From Pseudomonas sp. CFBP 13711 (GTDB lineage: Bacteria > Pseudomonadota > Gammaproteobacteria > Pseudomonadales > Pseudomonadaceae), in contig NZ_JACYVI010000006.1 of assembly GCF_014842265.1 (NCBI RefSeq), positions 62,001 through 126,000 on the forward strand: 64,000 bases of DNA, written 5' to 3'. The notes under the pieces are model-generated. The model saw only the letters and a list, made by a program, of their open reading frames with translations. It was not told the origin of the DNA and searched no databases. Of this stretch, positions 9,548-22,833 are shown in pieces; positions within the stretch are counted from its first letter, which is position 1; every line of letters starts with the position of its first letter. The position numbers and the translations under genes are program-made.

Positions 9548-9628
9548 GAGGTGGTTGTCTGGGCGAATAAGGCCGCCAATATACCCCGCTCCCGAATTGC
9601 AATCTCCTGGCGGGACTGCATGCCGTTG

Positions 9629-9720
9629 GTAGGACCGGCTTCAGCCGGGAAGAGGCCCGTGGCAGCGCCATCAATTCTGCAGGGTGGCGCCTGACGCTTT
9701 CCCGGCTAAAGCCAGTCCTA
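9629..9720. repeat. REP pair (family B) in inverted orientation
   Basis: TAGGACCGGCTTCAGCCGGGAAG at about 9629-9652 faces a TTTCCCGGCTAAAGCCAGTCCTA copy ending at 9720. A further degenerate half copy follows near 9743. It lies in the gap between the methyltransferase and metI. Confidence 0.85.
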
Positions 9721-9785
9721 CTGAATGAACGCATGCCGATAGTGGGACCGGATTCAGCCAGTCCTGCAGGGAAGGCGCCCTTTGA

Positions 9786-10430
9786 TCAGCGCTTGTTCAG
9801 TCGCAATGCCAATCGATCCCCGCCCAACTGAATCACCGCTACCAGGATCACGAGCAACACGATCACGGTGAGCATCACCTGCGTATCAAACCGCTGATAA
9901 CCGTAGCGATAAGCGATGTCGCCCAGGCCGCCCGCGCCGATGGCACCGGCCATGGCCGACGAATTGATCATTGTCACAATGGTGATGGTAAATCCGCCGA
10001 CGATGCCCGGCAGCGCTTCGGGCAACAGCACGTGCCAGACGATGTGCCACCGGCGGCAGCCCATCGCTTGTGCCGCTTCGATCAGGCCGTGGTCCACCTC
10101 GCGCAGGCTGACTTCCGCAATACGCGCGAAGAATGGCGTCGACGCGATGGTCAGCGGCACCACCGCCGCCCACACGCCGTAGGTCGTGCCGACGATCAGC
10201 CGCGTGAACGGAATCAGCGCGACCATCAGAATCAGGAACGGCACCGAACGAAAAATATTCACGAACGCGCCCAGCACCCGGTTCACATTGGGCGCCTCAA
10301 AAATGCCTCCCTTGCCGCTGGTGACCAGAATCACCGCCAGTGGAATGCCCAGAATCAACGCAATCAGCGACGACACGCCCACCATCAGAAAGGTGTCGAT
10401 GACGCCCTGCCACAGACGATCAAGCCACAT
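9786..10430 (-). CDS. metI: MetI-type ABC transporter permease
   Basis: Inner-membrane subunit of a methionine-type (MetNIQ family) importer, 214 residues. It has about five hydrophobic segments and the EAA loop [28 protein letters not shown] (split here: EAA core around A-x-x-x-G, residues 125-150) that contacts the ATPase. The ATG at 10430 has GGAGGT nine bases upstream and overlaps the end of metN by 11 bases, so I prefer it to a longer in-frame start at 10469. Given the neighbouring sulfur genes, the cargo may be methionine or another organosulfur compound. Confidence 0.85.
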
Positions 10431-11550
10431 AACCCAATACCTCCGCGTGCTGCGCGTGTTTGCGGGCACGATTGAGCAATTCGTCCGCCGACAGCGGCGA
10501 ATGACTTACCGCCAGCAGCAGGTGACCCAGCGCACGCCCCTGAATGCGTTCGACGCCGCCATGCAGCAGGCTCACCCGCCCGCCAAATGCATTGAACAGT
10601 GCCGACAAATCAGGCTCCTTGCCGTCGCTGCCGGTGAATTGCAGGTCCAGCACAACGCTGACGTGTTGTTCGGATGGCTGCGGCTGCAAGCGCGCCTGCA
10701 AATCCTCCGGCAGCGCATGTTGCAGCGGCGCCAGCAGCGTCTTGCTCACCTCATGTTGTGGATTGCCGAACACCTGCCAGACCGGGCCTTGCTCGACCAC
10801 TTCACCTTTTTCCAGCACCACCACCCGGTCACAGATCTCCCGGATCACCGCCATCTCGTGGGTGATCAAAATGATCGTCAGGCCCAGGCGCTGATTGATC
10901 TCGCGCAGCAGGCCGAGAATCGATTGCGTGGTTTCCGGATCGAGGGCCGAGGTCGCCTCGTCGCACAGTAGAATCGCCGGATCGTGAACCAGCGCCCGGG
11001 CGATGCCGACGCGCTGCTTCTGCCCGCCTGACAATTGCGCGGGATAGGCGGTGTGCTTGCCTTCCAGCCCCACCAATGCCAGCAGCTCGGCGACTTTGCG
11101 CTGACGCTGCGCCTTCGGCACGCCCGCCACCTTCAGCGGCAGCTCGACGTTCTGCCACACGGTCTTGGCCGACATCAGATTGAAATGCTGAAAGATCATG
11201 CCGATGCGTCGGCGCAGCGCCACCAGCGTGTCTTCGTTGAAGTCGCCGATGTCCACCTGATCGATCAGCACGCGTCCGCTGCTGGGTTTTTCCAGACGAT
11301 TGATGGTGCGAATCAGCGACGATTTGCCTGCGCCGCTGCGGCCGATGATGCCGAAAACCTCACCGCGCTGGATATCCAGATCGATGCCCGTAAGCGCCGG
11401 CACCGGCCCTTGCGGCCCTTGATAGACCTTGCCCAGATTGATGAAGCGCACATGGGCGTGTTGCTTCTGCGGGTGCAGTTCGGCTTGCTCGGCGGCATGG
11501 GGAGCTGCAGCACCCTCAAGCGCCAAAGTGCGTTGCGCGGATGCCGTCAT
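10420..11550 (-). CDS. metN: MetN-type ABC transporter ATPase with NIL domain
   Basis: 376 residues. After an unusually long N-terminal lead of about 33 residues come Walker [10 protein letters not shown] (70-78), the signature LSGGQKQR and Walker [15 protein letters not shown]-terminal NIL ligand-sensing domain starts at about residue 285 (VVLDLQFTG...). In E. coli MetN the NIL domain binds methionine and inhibits transport. The gene is coupled to metI by overlap and lies 2 bases after metQ. Confidence 0.85.
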
Positions 11551-11552
11551 GA

Positions 11553-12347
11553 TCAGTTCTTCCAGCCAACCTGATACAGCGAGCCATTGACCTTATCCAG
11601 CGAGGCTCGCACGACCGGCGAGTGTTGGTAGATGTCGATGAACTTGGCCAGACGCGGGTCATCCTTATGGTCCGGTTTGATGACGAACTGAATCACGTAC
11701 TCCGGGTGATCGAGGCCGTCGAACAGAATCGCCGAGCCGGCATCGAAGGTCTTCGACAGACGAATGTAGGCCGGGTAGCCCTGCACCAGATCGGCATCGT
11801 CATAGGCGCGCACCAGTTGCACGGCTTCGACCTGAATCAGCTTGATCTTCTTCGGGTTGGCGGTGATGTCGTCTTCGGTGGCCTTGTAGCCCACGCCCGG
11901 TTTTAGGGTAATCAAGCCGGCTTTGGCGAGCAGCTGCAGGCCGCGTCCGCTATTGATCGGGTCATTGGCGATTGCGACGGTGGCGCCGGTTGGCAGCTCA
12001 TCGAAGCTTTTGTACTTCTTCGAATACAGCCCGACATTGTTGATGATGCCCGGCGCGTACGGCACCAGATCAAAACCCGACGCCGCTTTGGCGTTTTCCA
12101 GAAACGGGATGTGCTGGAAGTAGTTCACGTCAATGTCGCCAGCGTTGAGGCTGACGTTGGGCGCGATCCAGTCGGTGAATTCCACCAGCTCGACCTTCAG
12201 GCCTTGTTTATCGGCTTCGGCGACGGCCGCTTCCAGCGGGATGGCGAACGCCGCCGTGGTGCCGACTTTGAGCGGTTGATCGGCAGCGTGGGTGACGCCG
12301 GCAAACAGGCCCAGGGACAGCGCGAGGGTGAGGAGGGTTTTGGTCAT
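11553..12347 (-). CDS. metQ: MetQ/NlpA-family substrate-binding protein
   Basis: Periplasmic receptor of the importer, 264 residues. The signal peptide ends at THA-ADQ near residue 21. Unlike E. coli MetQ, there is no lipobox cysteine, so it is probably soluble in the periplasm. Family marks include [12 protein letters not shown] at the mature N-terminus, [12 protein letters not shown], and a C-terminal [11 protein letters not shown]. It is the first gene of the metQ-metN-metI unit, with a REP-containing gap before the monooxygenase gene upstream. The ligand could be methionine or a sulfur ester or thioether. Confidence 0.85.
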
Positions 12348-12584
12348 GGCGGGTAATCCGGGTCAGTGGTCTGGTTTGAATACTTGGGTGTCTGTGAAGC
12401 CGTCTTCGCGAGCAAGCTCGCTCCCACAGGAACCAAAGTCGCTCACGTCATGTGGATAAAAATGCGGCCTTTGTGGGAGTTCATTCCGCTGCCTACGCGC
12501 CGCGCTGTCGCGCAGGCAACACGGTCCATGTGGGAGCGAGCTTGCTCGCGAAGGGGGCAGTTCAGACATAAATGCATCGCTGAC
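12348..12584. other. Intergenic gap between monooxygenase and metQ
   Basis: Holds a family A REP pair (12404-12555) and little else. It may carry a separate metQ promoter or simply attenuate read-through from the sfnB-monooxygenase genes. Confidence 0.5.
12404..12555. repeat. REP pair (family A) in inverted orientation
   Basis: CTTCGCGAGCAAGCTCGC at about 12404 and TGTGGGAGCGAGCTTGC from 12529 face each other, with a longer spacer (about 95 bases) than the pair at 147-240. Confidence 0.85.
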
Positions 12585-13952
12585 TCACGCTTGCGATCTT
12601 GCCCTGTAGCTCGCCCCCGCATGCCGATCAGGCAGTTTTGCGTCACCGCCCTCGAACAGCTTCTCGCGCAAGGTGCCGTGCTCGTATGCGGTCTTGTATG
12701 AGCCGCGCCGTTGCAGCTCGGGGATCACCAGATCGATGAAATCCTCGTAGCTCTCCGGGGTGACGATGCGGGTCAGGTTGAAGCCGTCCAGGCCGGTTTC
12801 GGCGATCCACGATTCCAGCTCGTCGGCGACCTGCTCGGGCGAGCCGATCAGCGTGATGTAACGGCCGCCGAGGGCGTGTTGATCGAGCAGCTTTTGGCGG
12901 GTCCAGTCGTTGTTCTTGAGGATCTTCGTGGCTGACTGAATGGCGTTGCCTTTCACGTGCTGGATCGGCTCGTCGAGCTCGTAGTCGGCGAAGTCGATGC
13001 CGGTGGACGCAGCAAAATGCGCGAGCCCGGCCTCCGCGCTGGCGTAGTTCAGGTACTCCGCGTACTTGGCTCGCGCCGCTTCTTCGGTGGGGCCAACGAT
13101 GACGTTGAGGCCCATGAACACTTTGATGTCATCGGGGTTGCGCCCGGCCGCCACGGCACTGGCGCGGACCTTGTCGACCTGCTCGCGGGTCGCGGGTTTG
13201 TTCTGCGCGCTGATGAACACGCACTCGGCGTTGCTGCCGGCAAACTGCAAACCCCGCTCGGAACTCCCAGCCTGAAACAGCACCGGCGTGCGCTGCGGCG
13301 ACGGCTCGCACAGGTGATAACCCTCAACCTGATAGAACTCGCCGCTGTGCCGCACGTAATGGACTTTTTCCGGCTGGGCGTAGATGCGCGCCTGACGGTC
13401 CTCGATGACTGCGTCGTCCTCCCAACTGCCTTCCCACAGCTTGTACAACACCTCCAGGTATTCATCGGCCTGGTCGTAGCGGCGGTCGTGTTCGATTTGC
13501 TCGGTCAGGCCCATCGCGCGCGCGGCGCTGTCCAGATACCCGGTGACGATGTTCCAGCCCACGCGGCCGCGCGTCAGGTGATCCAGCGTCGACATGCGCC
13601 GGGCGAACAGATACGGCGCCTCGTAGGTGAGGTTGGCGGTCAGGCCGAAGCCGAGGTTTTTGGTGACCGCGGCCATGGCCGATACCAGCAGCAGCGGATC
13701 ATTCACCGGCAACTGGATCGATTCCTTCAGGGTTACATCCACCGACTTCTGGTAGACGTCATAGACCCCGACGATGTCCGCGATGAACAACCCGTCGAAC
13801 AGCCCGCGCTCAAGCAACTGCGCCAGCTCTGTCCAGTATTCCAGGGTCTTGTACTGGGTCGACGTGTCCCGGGGGTGTGTCCAGAAACCGTGGTTGATGT
13901 GGCCGATGCAGTTCATGTTGAACGCGTTGAGCAAAATCTTTTTCTTGCTCAT
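12585..13952 (-). CDS. LLM-class flavin monooxygenase (NtaA/SnaA/DszA family)
   Basis: 455 residues, the usual length for the NtaA/SnaA/SoxA/DszA branch of bacterial luciferase-like FMNH2-dependent monooxygenases. Marks include KKILLNAFNMNC with GFWTHPRD near the N-terminus, GLFDGLFIADIVG, the RGRVGWNIVTGYLDSAARAMG segment (about 125-145), LFQAGSSERG and a C-terminal DGFNL. These enzymes hydroxylate or cleave compounds such as nitrilotriacetate or sulfones, using reduced FMN from a separate reductase; none is encoded nearby. The ATG at 13952 shares one base with the stop of the upstream SfnB-like gene, so translation is coupled. Sitting with two DszC/SfnB-like genes, it most likely serves sulfur scavenging. 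Confidence 0.8.
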   Translation of the reverse strand: MSKKKILLNAFNMNCIGHINHGFWTHPRDTSTQYKTLEYWTELAQLLERGLFDGLFIADIVGVYDVYQKSVDVTLKESIQLPVNDPLLLVSAMAAVTKNLGFGLTANLTYEAPYLFARRMSTLDHLTRGRVGWNIVTGYLDSAARAMGLTEQIEHDRRYDQADEYLEVLYKLWEGSWEDDAVIEDRQARIYAQPEKVHYVRHSGEFYQVEGYHLCEPSPQRTPVLFQAGSSERGLQFAGSNAECVFISAQNKPATREQVDKVRASAVAAGRNPDDIKVFMGLNVIVGPTEEAARAKYAEYLNYASAEAGLAHFAASTGIDFADYELDEPIQHVKGNAIQSATKILKNNDWTRQKLLDQHALGGRYITLIGSPEQVADELESWIAETGLDGFNLTRIVTPESYEDFIDLVIPELQRRGSYKTAYEHGTLREKLFEGGDAKLPDRHAGASYRARSQA

Positions 13953-15172
13953 CAAATCGTCCCCCGGCGTGGCGGGTTGACGTCATTGAGGTAGTAGTTG
14001 CCGATGGCGTGATACTTCCAGCGCACCGGGTCGTGCAACGTGTGGACTCGCGCGTTGCGCCAGTGCCGGTCAAGGCCGTGCTCTGCCAGCGTGGCCTGGG
14101 AACCGGCGAGTTCGAACAAGGTGCTGCCGGCTTCCAATGAGATTTCAGTGCTGATCGCCCGCGCCTCCGCGACCGCAATCGATGCCTGGGCCAGATTCTC
14201 TGGCGTGGTCTCGGCCTGGGCTCGATCCAGGAATTCCCCCGAACGTTCGAGCAGGGCTTCGGCGGCGTGCAGGCGAATGCCGAGCTTGCCAAAGCTGTGC
14301 AGCGTCAGCGGGTCATCGACGGCTTTTTCGATGCCAGAGTCGATCCAGGGCCGCGTGCGGGTGCGCACGAAATGCAGCGCGTCTTCAAAGGCCGCGCGGG
14401 CGATGCCGGTGTCGATGGCCGCATGGAGGATTTGTGCGAGAGGGCCGACGGTGGTCGGGCGCTCGAAGGCGGTCTGAAACGGCACCACGTCGTCGGCGTC
14501 AACGTACACGTTATCGAACACCACCGAGCCGCTGCCCGTGGTGCGCTGGCCGAAGCCGCTCCAGTCATCGATCACGCTCAGCCCCGTTGCGTTGGCTGGC
14601 ACGAATGCCAGCTGCTGCACGCCGTTTTCATCGACCACCGAGGTCGGTATGCGTTGGGCGTAAAGCGCGCCGGTGGCGTAGAACTTGCGGCCGTTGATGC
14701 GCCAGCCGTTGCCGTCGCGGCTCAGTCGGGTGGTGCGGTCGTGGGCGGTTTTGGTACCCAGTTCAGCCAGCGCGTTACCGAAGCGCTGACCGGCGAGGAC
14801 CTCGGCGTACAGACGCGCCTGCTGCGCCGGGCTGCCATTCACGCGCAGCACTTCCAGCGCGTAAAAGTGGTTCTGTGGAATTTGCCCCAGAGAGGCGTCG
14901 GCGGCAGAGATGATCCGAATGACCTCGGCCAGGGTGACATTGGACACGCCAGCGCCGCCAAAGGCCTTTGGCACGCTGATGCCCCACAGTCCCGAGCGGG
15001 AAAACGCTTCCAGTTCCTGATGGGGCAGGCGCCGTTCACGATCACGGGTGGCGCTCTGTTGTTTGAAATCTTCCGCCAGCGTGCGGGCGATACGCAGCGC
15101 CTCGGCGTCGTCACGAATGATCGCGGTCACGGCGGTCGCCTGCGTTTCACGCGGCAAGGTTTGAAGGCTCAT
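13952..15172 (-). CDS. sfnB: SfnB-family (DszC-like) flavin-dependent oxidoreductase, second copy
   Basis: 406 residues with the acyl-CoA-dehydrogenase fold: a helical N-terminal domain (DRERRLPHQELEAFSRSGLW), a beta middle domain (WRINGRKFYATGALYA, DDWSGFGQRTTGSGS) and a helical C-terminal domain ending RVHTLHDPVRWKYHAIGN. This is the SfnB/DszC sulfur-acquisition branch rather than a fatty-acid dehydrogenase. DszC-type enzymes use FMNH2 and O2 to oxygenate sulfur. It is strongly similar to the neighbouring copy at 15195-16436, and a GGAAG site precedes the ATG. Substrate unknown. Confidence 0.8.
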   Translation of the reverse strand: MSLQTLPRETQATAVTAIIRDDAEALRIARTLAEDFKQQSATRDRERRLPHQELEAFSRSGLWGISVPKAFGGAGVSNVTLAEVIRIISAADASLGQIPQNHFYALEVLRVNGSPAQQARLYAEVLAGQRFGNALAELGTKTAHDRTTRLSRDGNGWRINGRKFYATGALYAQRIPTSVVDENGVQQLAFVPANATGLSVIDDWSGFGQRTTGSGSVVFDNVYVDADDVVPFQTAFERPTTVGPLAQILHAAIDTGIARAAFEDALHFVRTRTRPWIDSGIEKAVDDPLTLHSFGKLGIRLHAAEALLERSGEFLDRAQAETTPENLAQASIAVAEARAISTEISLEAGSTLFELAGSQATLAEHGLDRHWRNARVHTLHDPVRWKYHAIGNYYLNDVNPPRRGTI

Positions 15173-15194
15173 AGGTGTGCTTCCAGTGGTCTGG

Positions 15195-16436
15195 TTATAT
15201 CCAGGAGTGACGGGCGGGCAGGGCGCCGTTCAGGTGCCAGGCGCCGACGGCGTGGACCTTCCAGCGCACCGGGTCGTGGAGGGTGTGAACCCGCGCGTTG
15301 CGCCAGTGACGATCAAGATTGAATTCGGCCAGCGTCGCGCGACTGCCCGACAGCTCGAACAGCTTTTCGCTGGCCTGCAGGGCGATTTGCGTGGTCAGTA
15401 CCTTGGCTTCGGCGACCACGATGGACGCCCGCGCCGCTGATTGTTCGTCGATGGGTTCGGCGGCGATGCCATCCAGCGCACGGCCGGCCTTGCGCAGCAG
15501 CGCTTCGGCGGCGTGCAGCTCGAGTTTCAGCTTGCCGATGTCAGCGATCACATACGGATCGTCACCGGCGCGCTCGACATTGGCGTCGATCCACGGCCGC
15601 GAACGCTCGCGCACAAAACGAATGCTTTCGTCGATGGCTTCCCGGGCAATGCCCGCATCGATGGCGGCCTGAATCAGTTGCGAGACCGCGCCCTGAATGT
15701 TCGGAGACAGGCCCAGCTTCCAGTTATCAACAACCAGTTCGCCACTCACGCGCACGTTTTCCAGCAGCACGCTGCCGCTGGCGGTGGTGCGCTGACCGAA
15801 GCCGGACCAGTCGTCGATGATGTGCAGCCCCGGCGTCCCGCGAGGCACGAACACCAGCACCTGTTTGCCGTCGTCATTGATGGCCTTGACCGCCACCCAG
15901 TGAGCGAACAGCGCGCCGGTCGAGTAGAACTTGCGGCCATTGAGCAAAAACTGATCACCGTCCGCAGTTATTCGCGTTCTGACGTCGAGGGTGTTTTTGG
16001 TCCCGCGTTCGGGGCCGCCGTTGCCGATGCGTGCGCCGCCGAGCACGCTGGCGAACAGGGTTTCTTTCTGCGCCTCGGTGGCGCTGCCGATCAGCGAGTT
16101 GAGAATCCCGAAGTGGTTTTGCGGAATCTGGCCCACGGCAGGGTCAGCCGCCGAGAGGATGGCGAAGACCTCGGCCACGGTCACGAACGATACCTGCGGC
16201 CCACCGTATGCGCGCGGTACCGAGATGCTGCCCAGGCCACTGCGGCTGAACAGCTCGATTTCTGACCAGGGCAGTTGCCGCTCGCGGTCTCGCGTGGCGG
16301 CATTCGGGCGCACGATCGCGGCCAGTTCATGGGCCGCGGCAAGGGCATCGGCGTCGTTGCGCAGTACGTTGGCAGGGAGCAGGGGAGGAGCTACGTCCAG
16401 GGTGTGCTGGACAGAAAGGGCGTTCAGATCAGTCAT
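15195..16436 (-). CDS. sfnB: SfnB-family (DszC-like) flavin-dependent oxidoreductase, first copy
   Basis: 413 residues with the same three-domain acyl-CoA-dehydrogenase fold as the next gene. Shared signatures are TRDRERQLPWSEIELFSRSGL, FLLNGRKFYSTGALFA, IIDDWSGFGQRTTASGS and HTLHDPVRWKVHAVG. I start at the ATG at 16436 because GAAGGT lies about 8 bases upstream; an in-frame start at 16463 has nothing comparable. It is the first gene of a minus-strand unit running into the second copy, the monooxygenase and then metQNI. Two diverged paralogues in tandem suggest sequential oxygenation steps or two substrates. Confidence 0.8.
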   Translation of the reverse strand: MTDLNALSVQHTLDVAPPLLPANVLRNDADALAAAHELAAIVRPNAATRDRERQLPWSEIELFSRSGLGSISVPRAYGGPQVSFVTVAEVFAILSAADPAVGQIPQNHFGILNSLIGSATEAQKETLFASVLGGARIGNGGPERGTKNTLDVRTRITADGDQFLLNGRKFYSTGALFAHWVAVKAINDDGKQVLVFVPRGTPGLHIIDDWSGFGQRTTASGSVLLENVRVSGELVVDNWKLGLSPNIQGAVSQLIQAAIDAGIAREAIDESIRFVRERSRPWIDANVERAGDDPYVIADIGKLKLELHAAEALLRKAGRALDGIAAEPIDEQSAARASIVVAEAKVLTTQIALQASEKLFELSGSRATLAEFNLDRHWRNARVHTLHDPVRWKVHAVGAWHLNGALPARHSWI

Positions 16437-16484
16437 GGTGGTGACCTTCACGAGCGCGAGCACTGGGGTCGTTGTGCTTGACCA

Positions 16485-16516
16485 TTCGAACCTCGAATCA
16501 ATACCGCGATAGCGGC
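16485..16516 (-). promoter_or_regulatory. Candidate control palindromes upstream of the sfnB operon
   Basis: TTCGA-ACC-TCGAA (16485-16497) and CCGC-GATA-GCGG (about 16505-16516) are two short inverted repeats 48-80 bases upstream of the first ATG. Either could be an operator. I see no clear -24/-12 element, although sfn genes in other pseudomonads are often sigma-54 dependent. Speculative. Confidence 0.3.
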
Positions 16517-16573
16517 GGGAAAATTGACGATGGTCCGGTGGTCCGGTGCATATACCCTAAGCGTGTATAAACA

Positions 16574-16714
16574 TTAAATAAACTCACATTTAGGAATAAG
16601 CATAGAAGGCGAAATGGCGGCTGCTGTCGCCAGCGCCGTGGCTTGCGTGTAGGTCAGGCATGAACCGAAGGCCAGCGCCAGAATCATGTACTTGACCAAA
16701 TGTCTGAAGGGCAT
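16574..16714 (-). CDS. Possible 46-residue small exported or membrane protein
   Basis: From the ATG at about 16714 (AAGGTG six bases upstream) the frame encodes 46 residues with a basic start (RHLVK) and a hydrophobic stretch YMILALAFGSCLTYTQATA that reads as a signal peptide or single membrane helix. A longer GTG-started frame to 16846 has a low-complexity lead and is unlikely. No family recognised. Coding status is supported only by the start signals and the plausible hydrophobic profile. Confidence 0.35.
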   Translation of the reverse strand: MPFRHLVKYMILALAFGSCLTYTQATALATAAAISPSMLIPKCEFI

Positions 16715-16874
16715 GGCGAACACCTTGTGAGGGGTTTCACCGCAGGCTAGCAGCCCGTTCCCGCGTATCCAGGGGGAAGCTGTAGGACGCTGATGGAGAT
16801 GATGTGGGAGGTTTCTTCTCTGTGGCTGATCCGTGGCGCCGTTCACGATTGCAGCACGCCAGGCGGCAGACGTA

Positions 16875-16901
16875 TCGCGGCGCGCCGAGGGTGCGCCGCG
16901 A
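16875..16901. repeat. GC-rich hairpin downstream of the two-repeat hypothetical gene
   Basis: A perfect 9-base stem, TCGCGGCGC (16875-16883) with GCGCCGCGA (16893-16901), lies 24 bases after the stop of the minus-strand gene at 16925. No T-run follows on that strand, so it is not a standard terminator. Confidence 0.5.
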
Positions 16902-16924
16902 CAGCGTCTTGAGCGGGGTCGATA

Positions 16925-17659
16925 TCAAGCTCCGACCTCATCGGTCATGTCGGTCGATACCTTGATCAATCGCGCCGGTGCCCAGCGCGAGTTATTGCCG
17001 ACGCGGTCAATCACGCAATAGCTCACCTCCAGGTGCGGATCATCGCCCGCCTCGCGCACCAATTCTGCTGGTACTTCAACCACGATGGGCAGGCCGACGT
17101 CTTCTTGGGTGAGCGCTGGCAGATCCAGACGCATGTCGCCCCAGCGAAGGGTGATTTCATCGTAGGCATCCATGTTGGGATAAGCGTCGAGGGTGAGCTG
17201 TACGCCCTCATCGAAGTGGCGCGCAGTCAAACCGTCCTGCATGACCGACTCGGCGAACGTCACCGGTGCCAGTCCCTGATTCTCATCGCCCTCGCCGCTG
17301 ACCAATTGACCGCCGGGAATCTCCAGTTTGACCCATAGCTTGGCGCCGGGAGATTTAATGGGTTCGCTGCCAATTTTGGTAACGCGATAGTAGGTTTTCA
17401 CTTTTCCACTTCGAAGAAAACTTTCGGGTACATGTAGGACGGATGTATGCCCGATGTCGGACTCCGATAAAAGTTTTGAGGCGGCATAACAGCCTCCCCA
17501 AAACAATTCGATCAAATCACCGCAGTCCATCTCTGGCCAGGGGTCGATGTGCACTCGCAGATCGGCCGCCGCCAGGGCGCCAATCCCATGCTTGTTCGAC
17601 TGCGGAAGATACGGCGCCATCAACTTGAAAGACTGAGTCATTACAGGGATACGGATCAT
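16925..17659 (-). CDS. Hypothetical protein with two tandem Ig-like/beta-sandwich repeats
   Basis: 244 residues, no signal peptide and no known catalytic motif. The sequence falls into two homologous halves. HIDPWPEMDCGDLIELFWGG (about 36-55) pairs with LDAYPNMDAYDEITLRWGD (about 154-172). The later strands YYRVTKIG...APAxL-like in half one pair with SYCVIDRVGNNSRWAPARL in half two. This is the look of the Ig-like beta-sandwich repeat proteins common but uncharacterised in pseudomonads. It stands alone between the sulfur operons, with an AT-richer gap upstream. Function unknown. Confidence 0.65.
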   Translation of the reverse strand: MIRIPVMTQSFKLMAPYLPQSNKHGIGALAAADLRVHIDPWPEMDCGDLIELFWGGCYAASKLLSESDIGHTSVLHVPESFLRSGKVKTYYRVTKIGSEPIKSPGAKLWVKLEIPGGQLVSGEGDENQGLAPVTFAESVMQDGLTARHFDEGVQLTLDAYPNMDAYDEITLRWGDMRLDLPALTQEDVGLPIVVEVPAELVREAGDDPHLEVSYCVIDRVGNNSRWAPARLIKVSTDMTDEVGA

Positions 17660-18186
17660 CTTTTAATACTCTTCGAATGCGTGCCTGGATCAAGGCAAGT
17701 CAGGTGATTAATTCATTGCAACTGCAGCGTGAAAACGACTGGCACTAGTACACGCCGGGATGCATAGACATGGCAAACATTACAAACGGTGGTAATTAGT
17801 GGGTTGCTGTTCTGGAAAAAGAATAAGCCGAGAGCAATTTCAGCTAATTGTGTTGCGGTGTTTGTGTCAACGGTAATTAAGTTTTTAAAGTGTGTGTAAC
17901 GCAAATGCAGAATTTTCCTACAGTTGAGCGTTGCTTATGGGGAGGGGGGTGCGACTGTGGTCCTACCTGAGCCGCCGGGCGCGCCGTATTCCGCAGTCAG
18001 CAGGCTAATGAAAAGTGTCAGCGACAGTTATTTGTGGGCGAGGAAATGGTCAATCAACGTTGCGGGGAAGTAGAGACAGTGAGCGCTGTTCGTATTGAAA
18101 AAACAGATAGATTGATGACGGCTAGCCGGCGTTGAAATAGTAGGACTTTTAGTGGGTCAACGCTTTTCTAAATATGAACGACAAAG
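17660..18186. other. AT-richer intergenic region
   Basis: About 530 bases, visibly less GC-rich than the surroundings, with no frame I would call a gene. A 63-codon minus frame at 17713-17904 lacks a ribosome site and a recognisable product. It should contain the promoter of the 16925-17659 gene. The base composition could mark an old insertion or a large leader. Confidence 0.45.
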
Positions 18187-18212
18187 AAAACGGCGCCTAT
18201 TGGCGCCGTTTT
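18187..18212 (-). terminator. Terminator of the cystine importer operon
   Basis: A perfect 11-base stem, AAAACGGCGCC (18187-18197) with GGCGCCGTTTT (18202-18212) around a TATT loop, lies 20 bases past the tcyN stop. The A/T ends make it usable in both directions. Confidence 0.85.
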
Positions 18213-18231
18213 AAACACATAACGTGTCGGA

Positions 18232-18975
18232 CTAATTCCTGCTGCGCTCAAGAAACTGCCTTGTGCGTTCTTCTTTGGGGTTGGCGAACAGCTCTTTCGC
18301 TTCGCCCTGTTCAACGATGACGCCCTTGTCGATGAAGATCACCCGGTTGGCGACGTCCCGCGCGAAGCTCATCTCGTGGGTCACGATCACCATTGTGCGT
18401 TTCTCCAGGGCGAGAGCGTGAATGGTATTCAGCACCTCGCCCACCAGCTCGGGATCGAGCGCCGACGTCGGTTCATCAAACAGAATGACCTCCGGCTCCA
18501 TGGCCAGCGCCCGGGCAATCGCCACCCGCTGTTGTTGACCACCGGACAACCGACGCGGATAAGCGTCTTCTTTACCCGCGAGGCCGACCTTCGCCAGCAG
18601 CGTGCGGCCCAGCTCGATGGCCTGTTCGCGCGGCATCTTCTTGACCACAGTAGGGCCTTCGATGACGTTTTCCAGCGCGGTGCGGTGGGGGAACAGATTG
18701 AAGTTCTGAAAGACGAACCCGACATGCTGGCGCAGTTGCCGGATAAGACCCTGCTGCTGGCTCAACGGGCGGCTCAAATCGACTTTGATGTCGCCCACGA
18801 CAATGCTGCCGCTCGTAGGCACTTCCAGCAGATTCAGGCAGCGCAGCAGCGTCGTTTTACCCGAACCGCTAGGGCCGATGATCGCTACCACTTCGCCCGG
18901 CTCGACCGTCAGGTCAATGCCCTTGAGCACTTCGTTGCCCTTGAATTGCTTGGTCAGTTTTTCAACCGTGATCAT
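18232..18975 (-). CDS. tcyN: L-cystine ABC transporter ATPase
   Basis: 247 residues, the polar amino-acid (PAAT) ATPase type. It has Walker A GPSGSGKTT (about 33-41), signature LSGGQQQRVAIARAL, Walker B VILFDEPTSALD and the H-loop IVTHEM. Gene order with a YecS-like permease, a FliY-like binding protein and dcyD matches the cystine uptake locus of E. coli (fliY-dcyD-yecS-yecC). Cystine is therefore the likely cargo rather than a general amino acid. Confidence 0.85.
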   Translation of the reverse strand: MITVEKLTKQFKGNEVLKGIDLTVEPGEVVAIIGPSGSGKTTLLRCLNLLEVPTSGSIVVGDIKVDLSRPLSQQQGLIRQLRQHVGFVFQNFNLFPHRTALENVIEGPTVVKKMPREQAIELGRTLLAKVGLAGKEDAYPRRLSGGQQQRVAIARALAMEPEVILFDEPTSALDPELVGEVLNTIHALALEKRTMVIVTHEMSFARDVANRVIFIDKGVIVEQGEAKELFANPKEERTRQFLERSRN

Positions 18976-18978
18976 GCC

Positions 18979-19647
18979 TCAGGACTCCACATCGTGGCGG
19001 TTGGCCCGTGCTTCCAGGCGATTTTGAAAATGCGCCAGGATGCTGCACAGCACCCAATAGATCACCGCAACGGTGAAATACATGGTGAAAATTTCCAGCG
19101 TCCGCGAAGAGATCAGCTGCGCCTGGCGGAACACTTCCGGCACCTGAATGGTGGCGGCCATCGCCGTGTCCTTGACCAGTGAAATAAAGCTGTTGCCCAA
19201 GGGCGGCAACGCGGTGCGTGCAGCTTGCGGCAGGATGGCGCGGCGCATGGTCTGGGCGCGCGTCATACCAATGCTCGCAGCGGCTTCCCACTGCCCTCGG
19301 TCCACCGAACCGATCGCGGCCCGAAGGATTTCGCAGGCATACGCGGCCATGTTCAGCGACAGGCCGATCAGCGCTGCGGTGATCGCATCCAGTTCAATGC
19401 CCAGGTCCGGCAAGCCGTAATAGATCATGAACAGCTGGACGAGCAGCGGCGTGCCACGGAAGAACGACACGTAAACCCTGGCGACGGCGCTGATGACCCA
19501 GATCTTCGACAAACGCATCAGTGCCAGGCCGAAGCCCAGCACCAATCCGAAAAACATCGACCCCAGGCTCAAGCCCACCGTGTAATACGCGCCCTTGAGC
19601 AGGAAGGGCGCGGAGTCCAGCGCGAGCTGAAGGCTCTCTGGAATCAT
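18979..19647 (-). CDS. tcyL: L-cystine ABC transporter permease
   Basis: 222 residues with four to five membrane helices and the PAAT EAA loop (SVDRGQWEAAASIGMTRAQT, about 140-160). It overlaps the binding-protein gene by 4 bases and lies 3 bases before the ATPase, so the three are one transcript. Homologous in context to YecS. Confidence 0.85.
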   Translation of the reverse strand: MIPESLQLALDSAPFLLKGAYYTVGLSLGSMFFGLVLGFGLALMRLSKIWVISAVARVYVSFFRGTPLLVQLFMIYYGLPDLGIELDAITAALIGLSLNMAAYACEILRAAIGSVDRGQWEAAASIGMTRAQTMRRAILPQAARTALPPLGNSFISLVKDTAMAATIQVPEVFRQAQLISSRTLEIFTMYFTVAVIYWVLCSILAHFQNRLEARANRHDVES

Positions 19648-20441
19648 TTGGTCACGTCAGCCTTGAAGTACTTGTCCGACAGCTTGGCGAGGGTGCCGTC
19701 GGCGCGCAGCTTGTCGATGGCCTTGTTGATCGCGTCCAGCAGTTCAGGCTCGCCCTTGCGCAGTGCGATACCGGATTCCTGACGGGAGAACGGTTCGCCG
19801 GAAACGGCCAGCTTGTCCTTGGTCTTGGCGACCAGTTCCAGCGCAGCGAGACGGTCGACGAGGATGGCGTCGATACGGCCGACACGCAGGTCCTGGTATT
19901 TGGTCGGATCATCGTCGTAGGTTTTGACGATGGCATCAGGCACGTTGGCTTTCAGCCATTCTTCGTAGTTGGTGCCCAGGCCGACGCCCACTTTCTTGCC
20001 TTTCAGGTCTGCGGCCGTTTTGATCACGCCGACGTCTTTGGTCTGCACCAGCGCTTGAATGCCCGACACGGTGTAGGGTTCGGAGAAGTCGTACTTCTTT
20101 TTACGCTCGTCGGAGATGGTCACCTGATTGACCACGACATCCAGACGCTTGGACTCCAATGCCGCCAGAATGCCGGCCCACGGCGTGGCTTGCAGCTTGA
20201 CCTTGACGCCCAGTTCCTTGGCCAGTGCTTCGGAGAACTCCACTTCGAAACCGGTCAGCTTGCCGTCTTCACCCACGAAGCTGAACGGGGGATAAGTGCC
20301 TTCCAGGCCGACATTAAGGGTTCCGTTCTTTTTGATGGTTGCCAGTTGATCGCCAGCGACAGCCTGGCTGACCAGACCCGTGCCCAGCACCAGGCTAAAG
20401 GCCGACAACAGAAAGGTGCGGCGGATTGCAGACATGTTCAT
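19644..20441 (-). CDS. tcyJ: Periplasmic L-cystine-binding protein
   Basis: 265 residues. The signal peptide has core LLSAFSLVLGTGLVSQAVAG, with cleavage at or just before GDQLA near residue 30. The mature part is a family 3 solute-binding protein: LNVGLEGTYPPFSF, GFEVEFSEALAKELGVK, and the hinge LKGKKVGVGLGTNYEEWL. GLEGTYPPFSF and the dcyD context match FliY/TcyJ-type cystine receptors. A GGGGAC site precedes the first ATG. Confidence 0.85.
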   Translation of the reverse strand: MNMSAIRRTFLLSAFSLVLGTGLVSQAVAGDQLATIKKNGTLNVGLEGTYPPFSFVGEDGKLTGFEVEFSEALAKELGVKVKLQATPWAGILAALESKRLDVVVNQVTISDERKKKYDFSEPYTVSGIQALVQTKDVGVIKTAADLKGKKVGVGLGTNYEEWLKANVPDAIVKTYDDDPTKYQDLRVGRIDAILVDRLAALELVAKTKDKLAVSGEPFSRQESGIALRKGEPELLDAINKAIDKLRADGTLAKLSDKYFKADVTK

Positions 20442-20671
20442 GAAAGTCCCCTGTTTTAATTGGAATGTCAGGCAAGTATCAGACCCGACGAAGCTACGTT
20501 GGCATCACGCGTTTATCCAGCTTTTTCAGTCGCCTGCAACGCTCTGCACGCCGGCTGGCGGCGATCATAAGACTCGAGCCCAACGATGAAAAATAATAAA
20601 AAGCGGATCGGTTATCAGTTTCTGGAATATGGCGTTCACGCGACGGTTTGCGTGGCAGCGGGACGAAGGCC

Positions 20672-21673
20672 CTATCCCGCCGAAAAGACGTCTTGATACG
20701 CAAACAAAGCTGGCGCGCCGCCGGTGTGGAGAAAGACGATCGGGCCGTCTTCGAAGCGCTGCCGGCCAATGCCGTCGAGCAGTCCAGCCATGGCTTTGCC
20801 GGTGTAAACCGGATCCAGCAACAGCCCTTCATGGCTGGCCACCAGCCGGATTGCCGCCAACGTCCCGGCATTCGGCTCGCCGTACCGTGGGCCGAAGTAT
20901 TCATCCCACAGCTGCACCTTGAATGCGGCGGGCAATGATTCGCCCAGCAGTTCGACGGTTTGCTCGGCCAGGCGCTGAACCTTGGGCGCCTGGGTTTCTT
21001 CCGGACGCGATACGGTCACGCCTATCACCGGAAGCTCAGGCAGTTCTTCCGCCAGCGCCAACGCCAGGCCGCTGTGGGTGCCGGCACTGCCCGACGCGAG
21101 CACGACGGCCGCGAATGACAGGCCGCTTTGCTTGATCTGCTCGGCCAGCTCAAAACCGGCCTGCACATAACCCAGCGCGCCGAGGGCATTCGAACCGCCG
21201 ATTGGCACCAGATAGGGCCTCTTGCCGCTGAGGCGAAGTCGGCTGGCCAGGGCTTGTAACTGGTCGTCGGCGTTGTCGAGGTTCTCGACCAATTCGACCT
21301 TGGTATCGAACAAATCCAGCAGCAGGCGATTGCCGTTGCCCAGGTAATTGCTGTCGTCGGTTGCAATCGGGTTTTCCAGCAGCGCCACACAACCCAGGCC
21401 GAGGCGGGCGGCGAGGGCAGCCGTCTGACGCACGTGGTTGGACTGAATGGCGCCCGCAGTGATCAGCGTGTCACAGCCCTGAGCCAGGGCATCGGCCGCG
21501 AGGTATTCCAGCTTGCGCAGCTTGTTGCCGCCCATGGCCAGCGGGGTGATGTCGTCGCGTTTCACGTAAATGTCGCGCCCGGCCCAGTTCGAAAGGCGTT
21601 CGAGCTTTTCAAAGGGCGTCGGACCGCCGAGCAATTCCAGACGATTAAAACGGGCGAGCTGTTGTTTGATCAT
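20672..21673 (-). CDS. dcyD: D-cysteine desulfhydrase
   Basis: PLP enzyme that splits D-cysteine into pyruvate, sulfide and ammonia. The 333-residue product follows E. coli DcyD closely: [10 protein letters not shown] at the start, the PLP-lysine region [72 protein letters not shown] and the ending [12 protein letters not shown] use the ATG at 21673 because the 50 residues upstream in frame have no counterpart in the family. Located 230 bases upstream of tcyJ in the same direction. Confidence 0.9.
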
Positions 21674-21870
21674 GGTGGCGTCGACAGGTCTGCAATTGAG
21701 TCGCAGGACTATAGGCAGACGTTTCCCACAGGGCAACCGCCCGGCGTCCTCCATCCCCTGCACAGAAGCCCCACGAAAATAGTTATTTTTTTGCCGCGAA
21801 GGGATGTCGTAGAGTGATTCCACTTCGGCCGTTACAGCCTGACTGGCCGTTGAATTGAGGAGAAATCTGC
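21674..21870. promoter_or_regulatory. Divergent promoter region between dcyD and epsC
   Basis: This short gap must drive the minus-strand dcyD-tcyJLN genes and the plus-strand serine acetyltransferase. A T-rich tract (near 21780-21792) followed by TAGAGTGATTCC is a possible promoter edge. A CysB-type site is expected from the gene content but cannot be defined by eye. Confidence 0.4.
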
Positions 21871-22833
21871 GTGAGCACTATTCCCGACCTGTCCCCGGAA
21901 TCCTGCGCCGAGGGCGTGACCGGCCACTGGCAACTGCAGCGGATTGTGGGCGAATTGCGCGCCGCGCGTGATGACTGGCGTACCAGCAACGGCCGAATCA
22001 GCGGGGAGAAGGGCGGCCGCGAGCTGCCTTCCCGCGAGGCCATGCGCGACATTCTCGATGCGCTCTGCGGCGCGCTGTTTCCAATGCGGCTGGGGCCGGT
22101 GGACCTGCGCGAAGAGAGCGAGGACTTCTACGTCGGCTACACCCTCGACGTGGCATTGAATTCGCTGCTCGATCAGGCGCGGCTCGAACTGCGCTACGCC
22201 GCCCGCCAGAAAGGCCAGGATGCCAGCTGCGCGGATGTGCATGCGGAACGGCTGATTCAGGATTTCGCCAGCGCACTGCCGACGATTCGCCGCGTCCTCG
22301 ACACCGACGTGCTGGCGGCGTACCACGGTGACCCTGCCGCGCGCAGTGTTGATGAGGTGTTGTTGTGCTACCCGGGCATTTTGGCGGTGATTCACCATCG
22401 TCTGGCCCATCATCTGTACCACAACGGTTTGCCCCTGCTGGCGCGCATCAGCGCCGAACTGGCCCATTCCGCCACGGGCATCGATATCCATCCCGGTGCG
22501 CAGATCGGCCCGAGCTTCTTTATCGATCACGGGACCGGCGTGGTCATCGGCGAGACCGCGATCATCGGCGAGCGCGTGCGCATCTATCAGGCCGTTACCC
22601 TCGGTGCCAAACGCTTCCCCTCCGATGAAGACGGCCAATTGCTCAAGGGCCATGCCCGTCACCCGATCGTCGAAGACGATGTAGTGATCTATGCCGGCGC
22701 CACGATTCTGGGGCGCATCACCATCGGCAAGGGCTCGACCATCGGCGGCAACGTGTGGCTCACGCGCGGCGTCCCGGCGGGCAGTAACGTCAATCAGGCG
22801 AGCCTGCAGCATGAGGATGGCTGTCCGAAGTAG
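21871..22833 (+). CDS. epsC: Serine O-acetyltransferase (EpsC type)
   Basis: Makes O-acetyl-L-serine from serine and acetyl-CoA, the carbon skeleton for cysteine. 320 residues: a long helical N-terminal domain (about 1-185), then the left-handed beta-helix of hexapeptide repeats. The active-site region [44 protein letters not shown] and the C-terminal repeats ending [13 protein letters not shown] mark this domain. The N-terminal extension is that of the EpsC/SrpH branch rather than classical CysE. The GTG start follows GAGGAG. Placed opposite dcyD and the cystine importer, it completes a cysteine supply module. Confidence 0.85.

Follow-up and report, generated by a model that had tools for sequence, protein, structure and literature searches.

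The 64,000-nucleotide stretch of contig NZ_JACYVI010000006.1 of Pseudomonas sp. CFBP 13711 analysed here (the window, whose positions serve as coordinates) carries on its minus strand a cassette of six genes, sfnB1-sfnB2-dmoA-metQ-metN-metI, at 9786-16436. We hold, with moderate confidence, that this cassette is a sulfur-starvation operon which takes up an organosulfur compound that is neither methionine nor a free amino acid, adds oxygen to its sulfur and cleaves a C-S bond. The gene set, order and strand are as described in an earlier note on this DNA, and the operon type proposed there, organosulfur scavenging by an importer together with oxygenases dependent on reduced flavin mononucleotide (FMNH2), is supported by the conserved gene order, by family membership and by the co-regulation reported in P. 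protegens (PMC12892942).

The cassette and its conservation

Of 199 genomes sampled from the same genus, 159 carry an orthologue of metQ (E value of 1e-60 or better), and so do 19 out of 398 genomes sampled across the phylum, a count that includes the genome itself and seven others of the genus. Stretches of up to 20 kb around metQ were compared in 20 same-genus genomes, hand-picked from the metQ-positive list for a spread of identity, and every one of these loci has all six genes in the same order (20 out of 20). Named genomes were scanned with aligned SfnB2 proteins of the family containing Acinetobacter, and the best 80 of 144 loci were kept; the six genes stand in order in 76 of these 80, nearly all of them from Acinetobacter. 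Since the order is kept in both sets, the conserved arrangement is far beyond chance. Among the four named exceptions there are two (L188 and L198) in which the cassette runs out close to the end of the available sequence and one (L251) in which the ATPase open reading frame (ORF) is short and was scored as tcyN; the remaining one is discussed below.

The genes are tightly packed (Table 1). The one-base stop/start overlap between sfnB2 and dmoA, already pointed out in the earlier note, is confirmed (TGATG, the A at 13952 being common to both codons), metQ and metN are spaced by 2 bases, and metN overlaps metI by 11. The only wide interval is the gap of about 237 bases between dmoA and metQ, which holds two opposed elements resembling repetitive extragenic palindromes (REP), both with 0 mismatches to a motif that was itself read from the same gap. 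Across the 20 same-genus loci (L055-L074) plus L161, L164 and L170 this gap ranges from -4 to +469 bases, and in 8 out of these 23 loci the two genes overlap or lie at most 5 bases apart, which fits a single operon. The REP pair therefore seems to have been inserted into a single operon, not to mark an operon boundary.

Table 1. Features of the cassette and its upstream side, in window coordinates, with family scores and curated cut-offs
Feature	Position	Strand	Description	Evidence
sfnB1	15195..16436	-	SfnB-family group D flavin monooxygenase, acyl-CoA-dehydrogenase fold, 413 aa	TIGR04022, 599.3 bits (cut-off 430.9)
sfnB2	13952..15172	-	second SfnB-family monooxygenase, 406 aa	TIGR04022, 637.6 bits (cut-off 430.9)
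dmoA	12585..13952	-	NtaA/DmoA-family FMNH2-dependent monooxygenase, 455 aa	TIGR03860, 560.9 bits (cut-off 279.7)
REP-like inverted pair	12530-12551; 12406-12427	+; -	in the dmoA-metQ gap	
metQ	11553..12347	-	NlpA-family periplasmic receptor without lipobox	PF03180, 235 bits (cut-off 27)
metN	10420..11550	-	ATP-binding cassette (ABC) ATPase, C-terminal NIL domain, 376 aa	PF00005, PF09383 (NIL)
metI	9786..10430	-	ABC permease, 214 aa	PRK10782, 230.5 bits (cut-off 212); start by reading, translation checked
short ORF MVKHNDPSARAREGHHHD	16429..16485	-	overlaps the start of sfnB1, out of frame here	
tcyJ-tcyL-tcyN	18232..20441	-	cystine importer, upstream neighbour	NCBIfam TcyN, cystine permease and cystine receptor above cut-offs

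There are some variations in the gene content of these loci. A second metQ follows the first in 38 of the 80 named loci, and L166 has four metQ-like genes. In a sister genus, L161 (at about 12-17.3 kb) and L162 (at about 12-16.5 kb) have a second set of sfnB-like, dmoA-like, metI-like and metQ-like genes directly upstream of the cassette, and the metQ-like protein of that set has a Glu at position 229. Finally, one of the 80, a record labelled Streptomyces cinereus (L245), holds an Acinetobacter-like cassette with a G+C content of 0.45, which is probably an assembly contamination.

The receptor has a rebuilt pocket

MetQ is a member of the NlpA/MetQ fold family, and its predicted structure (pLDDT, the predicted local distance difference test, 83.2) has the MetQ fold, with Z scores of 31.0 to 3tqw and 30.6 to E. 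coli 4yah; a second look found no receptor other than MetQ near the top of the fold matches, an absence that by itself proves nothing. The protein falls under the cut-offs of both methionine-receptor models (161.3 against 374 for PRK11063, 152.2 against 228.85 for TIGR00363). MetN, in which the NIL domain is present, scores 354 bits and thus stays below the TIGR02314 cut-off of 499.7, while MetI is above that of the MetI model.

The methionine contacts are known from Neisseria MetQ, where R156, N213 and N238 bind the amino and carboxyl groups of the ligand and Y81, F98, H100 and Y103 surround its thioether; N238 corresponds to N229 of E. coli MetQ (PMC6739813). Replacement of this asparagine by alanine lowers the affinity for L-methionine more than 10^5-fold in Neisseria (PMC6739813) as well as in E. 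coli (PMC12357092). We mapped the other positions by sequence motif to E. coli R144, N202, Y69, F86, H88 and Y91. Column 202 had to be anchored on the motif INTNYA of the MetQ on contig C16, set against GYPAY, because the alignment gaps E. coli there (it shows Val). In E. coli numbering the pocket of the window MetQ reads W69, F86, H88, F91, R144, Y202 and I229, i.e. both head-group asparagines, Asn202 and Asn229, are replaced, by Tyr and Ile respectively. Nearly all related receptors lack them too. Among 171 receptor rows (the fetched loci including the window; a genome may appear twice, named and unnamed, and such duplicates were kept) both asparagines are absent in 170, the sole row that has them being a metQ of L168, and Glu takes position 229 in two rows. 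All 171 rows keep Arg144 and 168 keep Trp69, and position 88 is His in 123 and Gln in 44. The rebuilt pocket of the subfamily reads Trp, Phe, His/Gln, Phe, Arg, Tyr/Phe and Ile.

Besides the cassette MetQ the genome encodes two more MetQ proteins, on contig C16 and at C6:57 kb. Each has both asparagines, and the one on C16 adjoins ABC permease and ATPase ORFs that resemble MetI and MetN. These two proteins also bear on an argument of the earlier note, which had taken the missing lipobox as a sign that the ligand may not be methionine. The N-terminus of the cassette MetQ is indeed a signal-peptide-like stretch without cysteine, and 28 of the 171 rows have a cysteine of any context within the first 45 kept residues. 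Yet both other MetQ proteins of the same genome lack a lipobox too, so its absence says nothing about the ligand, and we rejected this trait, common to all three, as ligand evidence. Both lipid-modified and secreted forms of MetQ are predicted in Proteobacteria (PMC8416018). The suggestion of a non-methionine ligand itself is still supported, now by the loss of both head-group asparagines, and the database label 'methionine lipoprotein' is probably wrong for the cassette receptor.

The monooxygenases

SfnB1 and SfnB2 are both members of the SfnB family (TIGR04022) and are 53% identical to each other. Against the DszC model NF043015 they score 238.3 and 191.6 bits, the cut-off being 850, so by score they are not DszC. 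In a tree of 60 rows (flagged by the program for long branches in its outer part) the cassette SfnB1 proteins form a clade of their own (20 rows, support 100/99), as do the cassette SfnB2 proteins (20 rows, 100/98). A third, separate clade (99/96) unites the C2:219628 protein of Acinetobacter baylyi with the third SfnB of four same-genus genomes. The C2:219628 protein is by inference probably Dms2, and if so it is the closest assayed SfnB relative (54% identity to SfnB2, 51% to SfnB1); a grouping of the cassette proteins with it or with the third Pseudomonas SfnB was not seen in this tree.

The third enzyme belongs to the NtaA/DmoA family (TIGR03860). Its best matches in the PDB are 6ak1 (DmoA, 531 bits) and 3b9n (LadA, 520 bits), with DszA at 271 bits, and the identities are 51% over 452 positions to 6ak1, 52% over 448 to 3b9n and 37.5% to DszA. 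In the tree a clade of 21 rows (99/96) holds the cassette enzymes alone and adjoins DmoA and LadA, and DszA lies beyond a 100/100 split. The 'DszA-like' label of the earlier note thus has to be corrected to DmoA/LadA-like. Of the 20 binding residues listed for DmoA (PMC9259527), 13 are kept in the cassette enzyme, whose clade neighbours 6ak1; the DmoA residues that are changed are Q18, V59, S137, A229, G231, L367 and G368.

Flavin supply and later sulfur enzymes

Pfam and NCBIfam family searches found no FMN reductase among the cassette genes, in agreement with the earlier note. The genome encodes one SsuE above cut-off (contig C13, 237 bits), and the MsuE model matches only that same gene, below its cut-off. 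In A. baylyi a single reductase, MsuE, serves all oxygenases of the dimethyl sulfide (DMS) pathway (PMC13352529). As one reductase can serve many oxygenases and an SsuE is encoded elsewhere, we do not regard the absence of a reductase from the cassette as a gap. The same is true for the last step, the formation of sulfite, since one SsuD is above cut-off (contig C14, 648 bits); a second, on C4, is below it (260 bits).

Two further organosulfur-type clusters were found in the genome. One, on C10 (L269), has SfnB-like and DmoA-like (49%) genes, the other, on C4 (L270), has SsuD-like, SsuA-like, NtaA-type and DszC-like genes.

Published relatives and the cassette of Acinetobacter baylyi

Three group D enzymes of A. 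baylyi, Dms1 (ACIAD0427), Dms2 (ACIAD0428) and Dms3 (ACIAD2537), oxidise DMS and dimethyl sulfoxide (DMSO), and Dms2 uses flavin supplied by MsuE for both reactions; five group D enzymes were assayed, and ACIAD2064 and ACIAD2065 were insoluble (PMC13352529). A. baylyi DSM 14961 (L243) has a complete cassette at C7:392-399 kb, with the SfnB pair at 392-395 kb, and seven SfnB-type proteins above 260 bits. In order to relate this pair to the locus tags of strain ADP1, we took anchors from Table 2 of PMC2265553 and placed them on DSM 14961 by family matches: a PcaR/PcaU-family gene at C7:45 kb for the PCA cluster (ACIAD1702-1712), nitrate/nitrite reductase genes at C7:240-247 kb for NAS (ACIAD1908-1914) and sarcosine-oxidase-type genes at C7:853-858 kb for the SOX cluster (ACIAD2549-2552). 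The PcaR/PcaU family and NirB matches are above cut-off, those of SoxA and SoxB below. Interpolation by hand arithmetic puts the cassette pair near ACIAD2068, and a gene at C7:840 kb near ACIAD2535, to be compared with ACIAD2537 for Dms3. If the two strains are collinear, the cassette pair is probably ACIAD2064/2065, and Dms1 and Dms2 would be the pair at C2:218-221 kb. An identity of the cassette pair with Dms1/Dms2 of ADP1 was considered because of the tandem SfnB genes, and was rejected given the position near ACIAD2068.

Two SfnB genes of P. protegens are co-regulated with sulfur-starvation genes according to a gacS mutant study (PMC12892942). In a cysteine-synthesis mutant of A. baumannii, genes of the SfnB family and methionine ABC transporters are upregulated (PMC13344012); these are presumably cassette genes.

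What the cassette may do

We propose that MetQ as the receptor, MetI as the channel and MetN as the ATPase would import a small organosulfur compound, the sulfur end of which would fit the former methionine thioether cage. The ligand probably bears an acidic group that would be held by the kept arginine. SfnB1 and SfnB2 would then add oxygen to the sulfur, using FMNH2 and O2, in a single step or in two (from thioether through sulfoxide to sulfone, or similar), the DmoA-type enzyme would cleave the C-S bond, and the product would pass to general enzymes such as SsuD, yielding sulfite. FMNH2 would be supplied by the SsuE encoded elsewhere in the genome, and in this strain the operon would be expected to be induced by sulfur starvation. 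The earlier note proposed that the cluster itself releases sulfite; we think it more likely that the DmoA-type enzyme leaves a thiol, a sulfinate or a sulfonate for SsuD-like enzymes.

A broader proposal, which we put forward tentatively and with somewhat more doubt than belief, is that the cassette represents a widespread, as yet undescribed uptake-and-desulfurisation system, in which NlpA-type receptors with a rebuilt pocket import abundant organosulfur compounds of soil and plants that have no amino-acid head, and the SfnB1-SfnB2-DmoA chain frees the sulfur. Candidate ligands would include methylthio-carboxylates, sulfinates and compounds resembling dimethylsulfoniopropionate. Identifying the ligand would assign a role to several common and probably misannotated genes, and would reveal the organosulfur compound over which bacteria of soil and plants compete at times of sulfate shortage.

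Several points weigh against the function proposed for the operon. The remaining named exception, L209 of Acinetobacter, has the three oxygenases without the importer. Conversely, the distant loci L165, L168 and L169 have dmoA and metQ-metN-metI with no SfnB pair in the fetched 20 kb (L163 was left out of this comparison as it extends past the fetched stretch), and L165 and L169 have only single SfnB matches of 34-35%; the SfnB steps are therefore not obligatory for the imported compound. The pocket was read from an alignment. The link of PFL_0244/PFL_0245 of P. protegens to the cassette SfnB pair is inferred, and the pair of A. baylyi is probably the one that forms inclusion bodies. We take the cassette to be PA2345-2350 in P. 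aeruginosa and PP_0221-0224 in P. putida, and in the openly licensed literature searched we found no functional study of, and no published substrate for, any cassette enzyme or receptor. PMC12581299 does not mention PA2346-2349, metQ or sfnB, and none of the group C enzymes (DmoA-type fold) tested in ADP1 oxidised DMS detectably (PMC13352529).

Some alternatives need to be discussed here. The cassette could be a branch of DMS and DMSO assimilation, with SfnB1 and SfnB2 taking DMS via DMSO to dimethyl sulfone as Dms1-3 do, and with an importer that is incidental or serves a related methylated sulfur compound. The enzymes are of the same family, the SfnB proteins are 51-54% identical to the probable Dms2, and dmoA resembles a DMS monooxygenase (6ak1, 51%), but we consider this alternative unlikely, since the cassette SfnBs fall into two separate clades, neither of which includes C2:219628 or the third Pseudomonas SfnB, and an ATP-driven importer should be unneeded for DMS or DMSO. 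In addition, the growth of the ADP1 dms1-dms2-dms3 mutant on DMSO is nearly abolished although the cassette, if rightly linked to ACIAD2064/2065, should remain in it (PMC13352529). It is also conceivable that the operon imports and degrades methionine or methionine sulfoxide, the altered pocket binding the amino acid in another way. The overall MetQ fold, a MetI above the MetI cut-off and the kept Arg144, Phe86 and His88 would suit this, but 170 out of 171 rows lack both of the asparagines that bind the amino and carboxyl groups, two MetQ proteins that keep both are already encoded in the genome (C16 and C6:57 kb), and MetQ (161 against 374) and MetN (354 against 499.7) score well under the curated methionine cut-offs. 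This makes a methionine system very improbable.

The use of a sulfonate ester or an activated sulfonate is, in our judgement, improbable as well. Here the SfnB-type and DmoA/DszA-type enzymes would hydroxylate an ester bound through the arginine, in the manner of seuABC of Corynebacterium glutamicum, which has a similar mix of flavin monooxygenases. The arginine present in all 171 receptors would fit this, but the receptor also keeps its aromatic thioether side, which suggests a reduced sulfur group. We find it hardest to credit that the cluster is unrelated to sulfur, with a DmoA-type enzyme whose substrate, in the sense of NtaA, LadA or HcbA1, is a nitrogen compound, an alkane or a halogenated compound. 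The enzyme is no nearer to DmoA than to LadA (52% identity) and TIGR03860 covers NtaA-type enzymes, but the gene is linked to two SfnB-type enzymes, tcy genes are present in 19 out of 20 same-genus loci, and the alkane activity of LadA is disputed, as it could not be reproduced (PMC12449030).

Upstream region and neighbouring genes

A conserved block lies upstream of sfnB1 (16533..16608, minus strand), with the pattern CTTCTAT..TATTCC.AAA ... GGTATAT.ACCGGACCACCGGAC. Most positions of this block, which ends in GGTATAT.ACCGGACCACCGGAC, are conserved in at least 90% of 23 aligned upstream regions, though not in L161, and ACCGGACCACCGGAC (16533-16547), conserved to the same degree, is a direct repeat of ACCGGAC. 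We presume that the block contains the promoter and leader, and its make-up would suit a CysB-type activated promoter. A sigma-54 promoter of the SfnR type was considered and rejected: no sigma-54-like site was found within 420 bases upstream of sfnB1 in the window and L055-L074. The same scan of 15 other loci gave one strict match (L151) and loose matches in L153, L162 and L164. Sigma-70-like sites were 0 in 9600-18000, terminator-like sites in the same range were 9 against 7.3 expected, and Rfam had no match in 9700-21900.

The start region of the short upstream ORF is conserved (MV..TITPV in many relatives), and in L060, L062, L066 and L170 this ORF is in frame with sfnB1. The start of sfnB1 thus seems to have shifted in the lineage of the window.

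Further upstream, on the same strand, tcyJ and tcyN are present in 19 out of 20 same-genus loci, as is, in the window, a dcyD-like ORF (named by reading). Between tcyN and sfnB1 there is a 244-aa protein (16925-17659) with no Pfam or NCBIfam match and with a homologue in 12 out of 20 same-genus loci. Just beyond the window we noticed a sulfur island (C6:56-62 kb, i.e. L005 12009-17952) with a sigma-54-activator-like ORF, a TauD-like dioxygenase and a Tau-like importer, all named by reading. The second MetQ of this island has Thr in place of His88 and keeps both asparagines, and further out there is, by reading, a sulfate-importer-like set.

Comparison with known systems

It is useful to compare the general features of the cassette with those of known systems. 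Dms1-3 of A. baylyi ADP1 are, like the cassette enzymes, of the group D SfnB type and receive their flavin in trans; they oxygenate a thioether sulfur and are strongly induced when DMS replaces sulfate (PMC13352529), but they belong to different clades. DmoA (6ak1) and LadA (3b9n) are 51-52% identical to the third enzyme and lie next to the clade that the cassette enzymes form. DszABC shares the general chemistry, i.e. oxygenation of sulfur followed by C-S cleavage with FMNH2, and the folds, those of DszC and DszA. On the other hand, the cassette has an importer, there is no DszB-type gene among the six, and DszA is only 37.5% identical. MetNIQ has the same gene set, with a NIL-domain ATPase, a MetI above cut-off and the MetQ fold, whereas the cassette receptor has lost Asn202 and Asn229. 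Finally, the ssu and msu systems also use FMNH2-dependent oxygenases in sulfur starvation, and ssu has an ABC importer too, but the importer and oxygenase families of the cassette are different and it contains no reductase gene.

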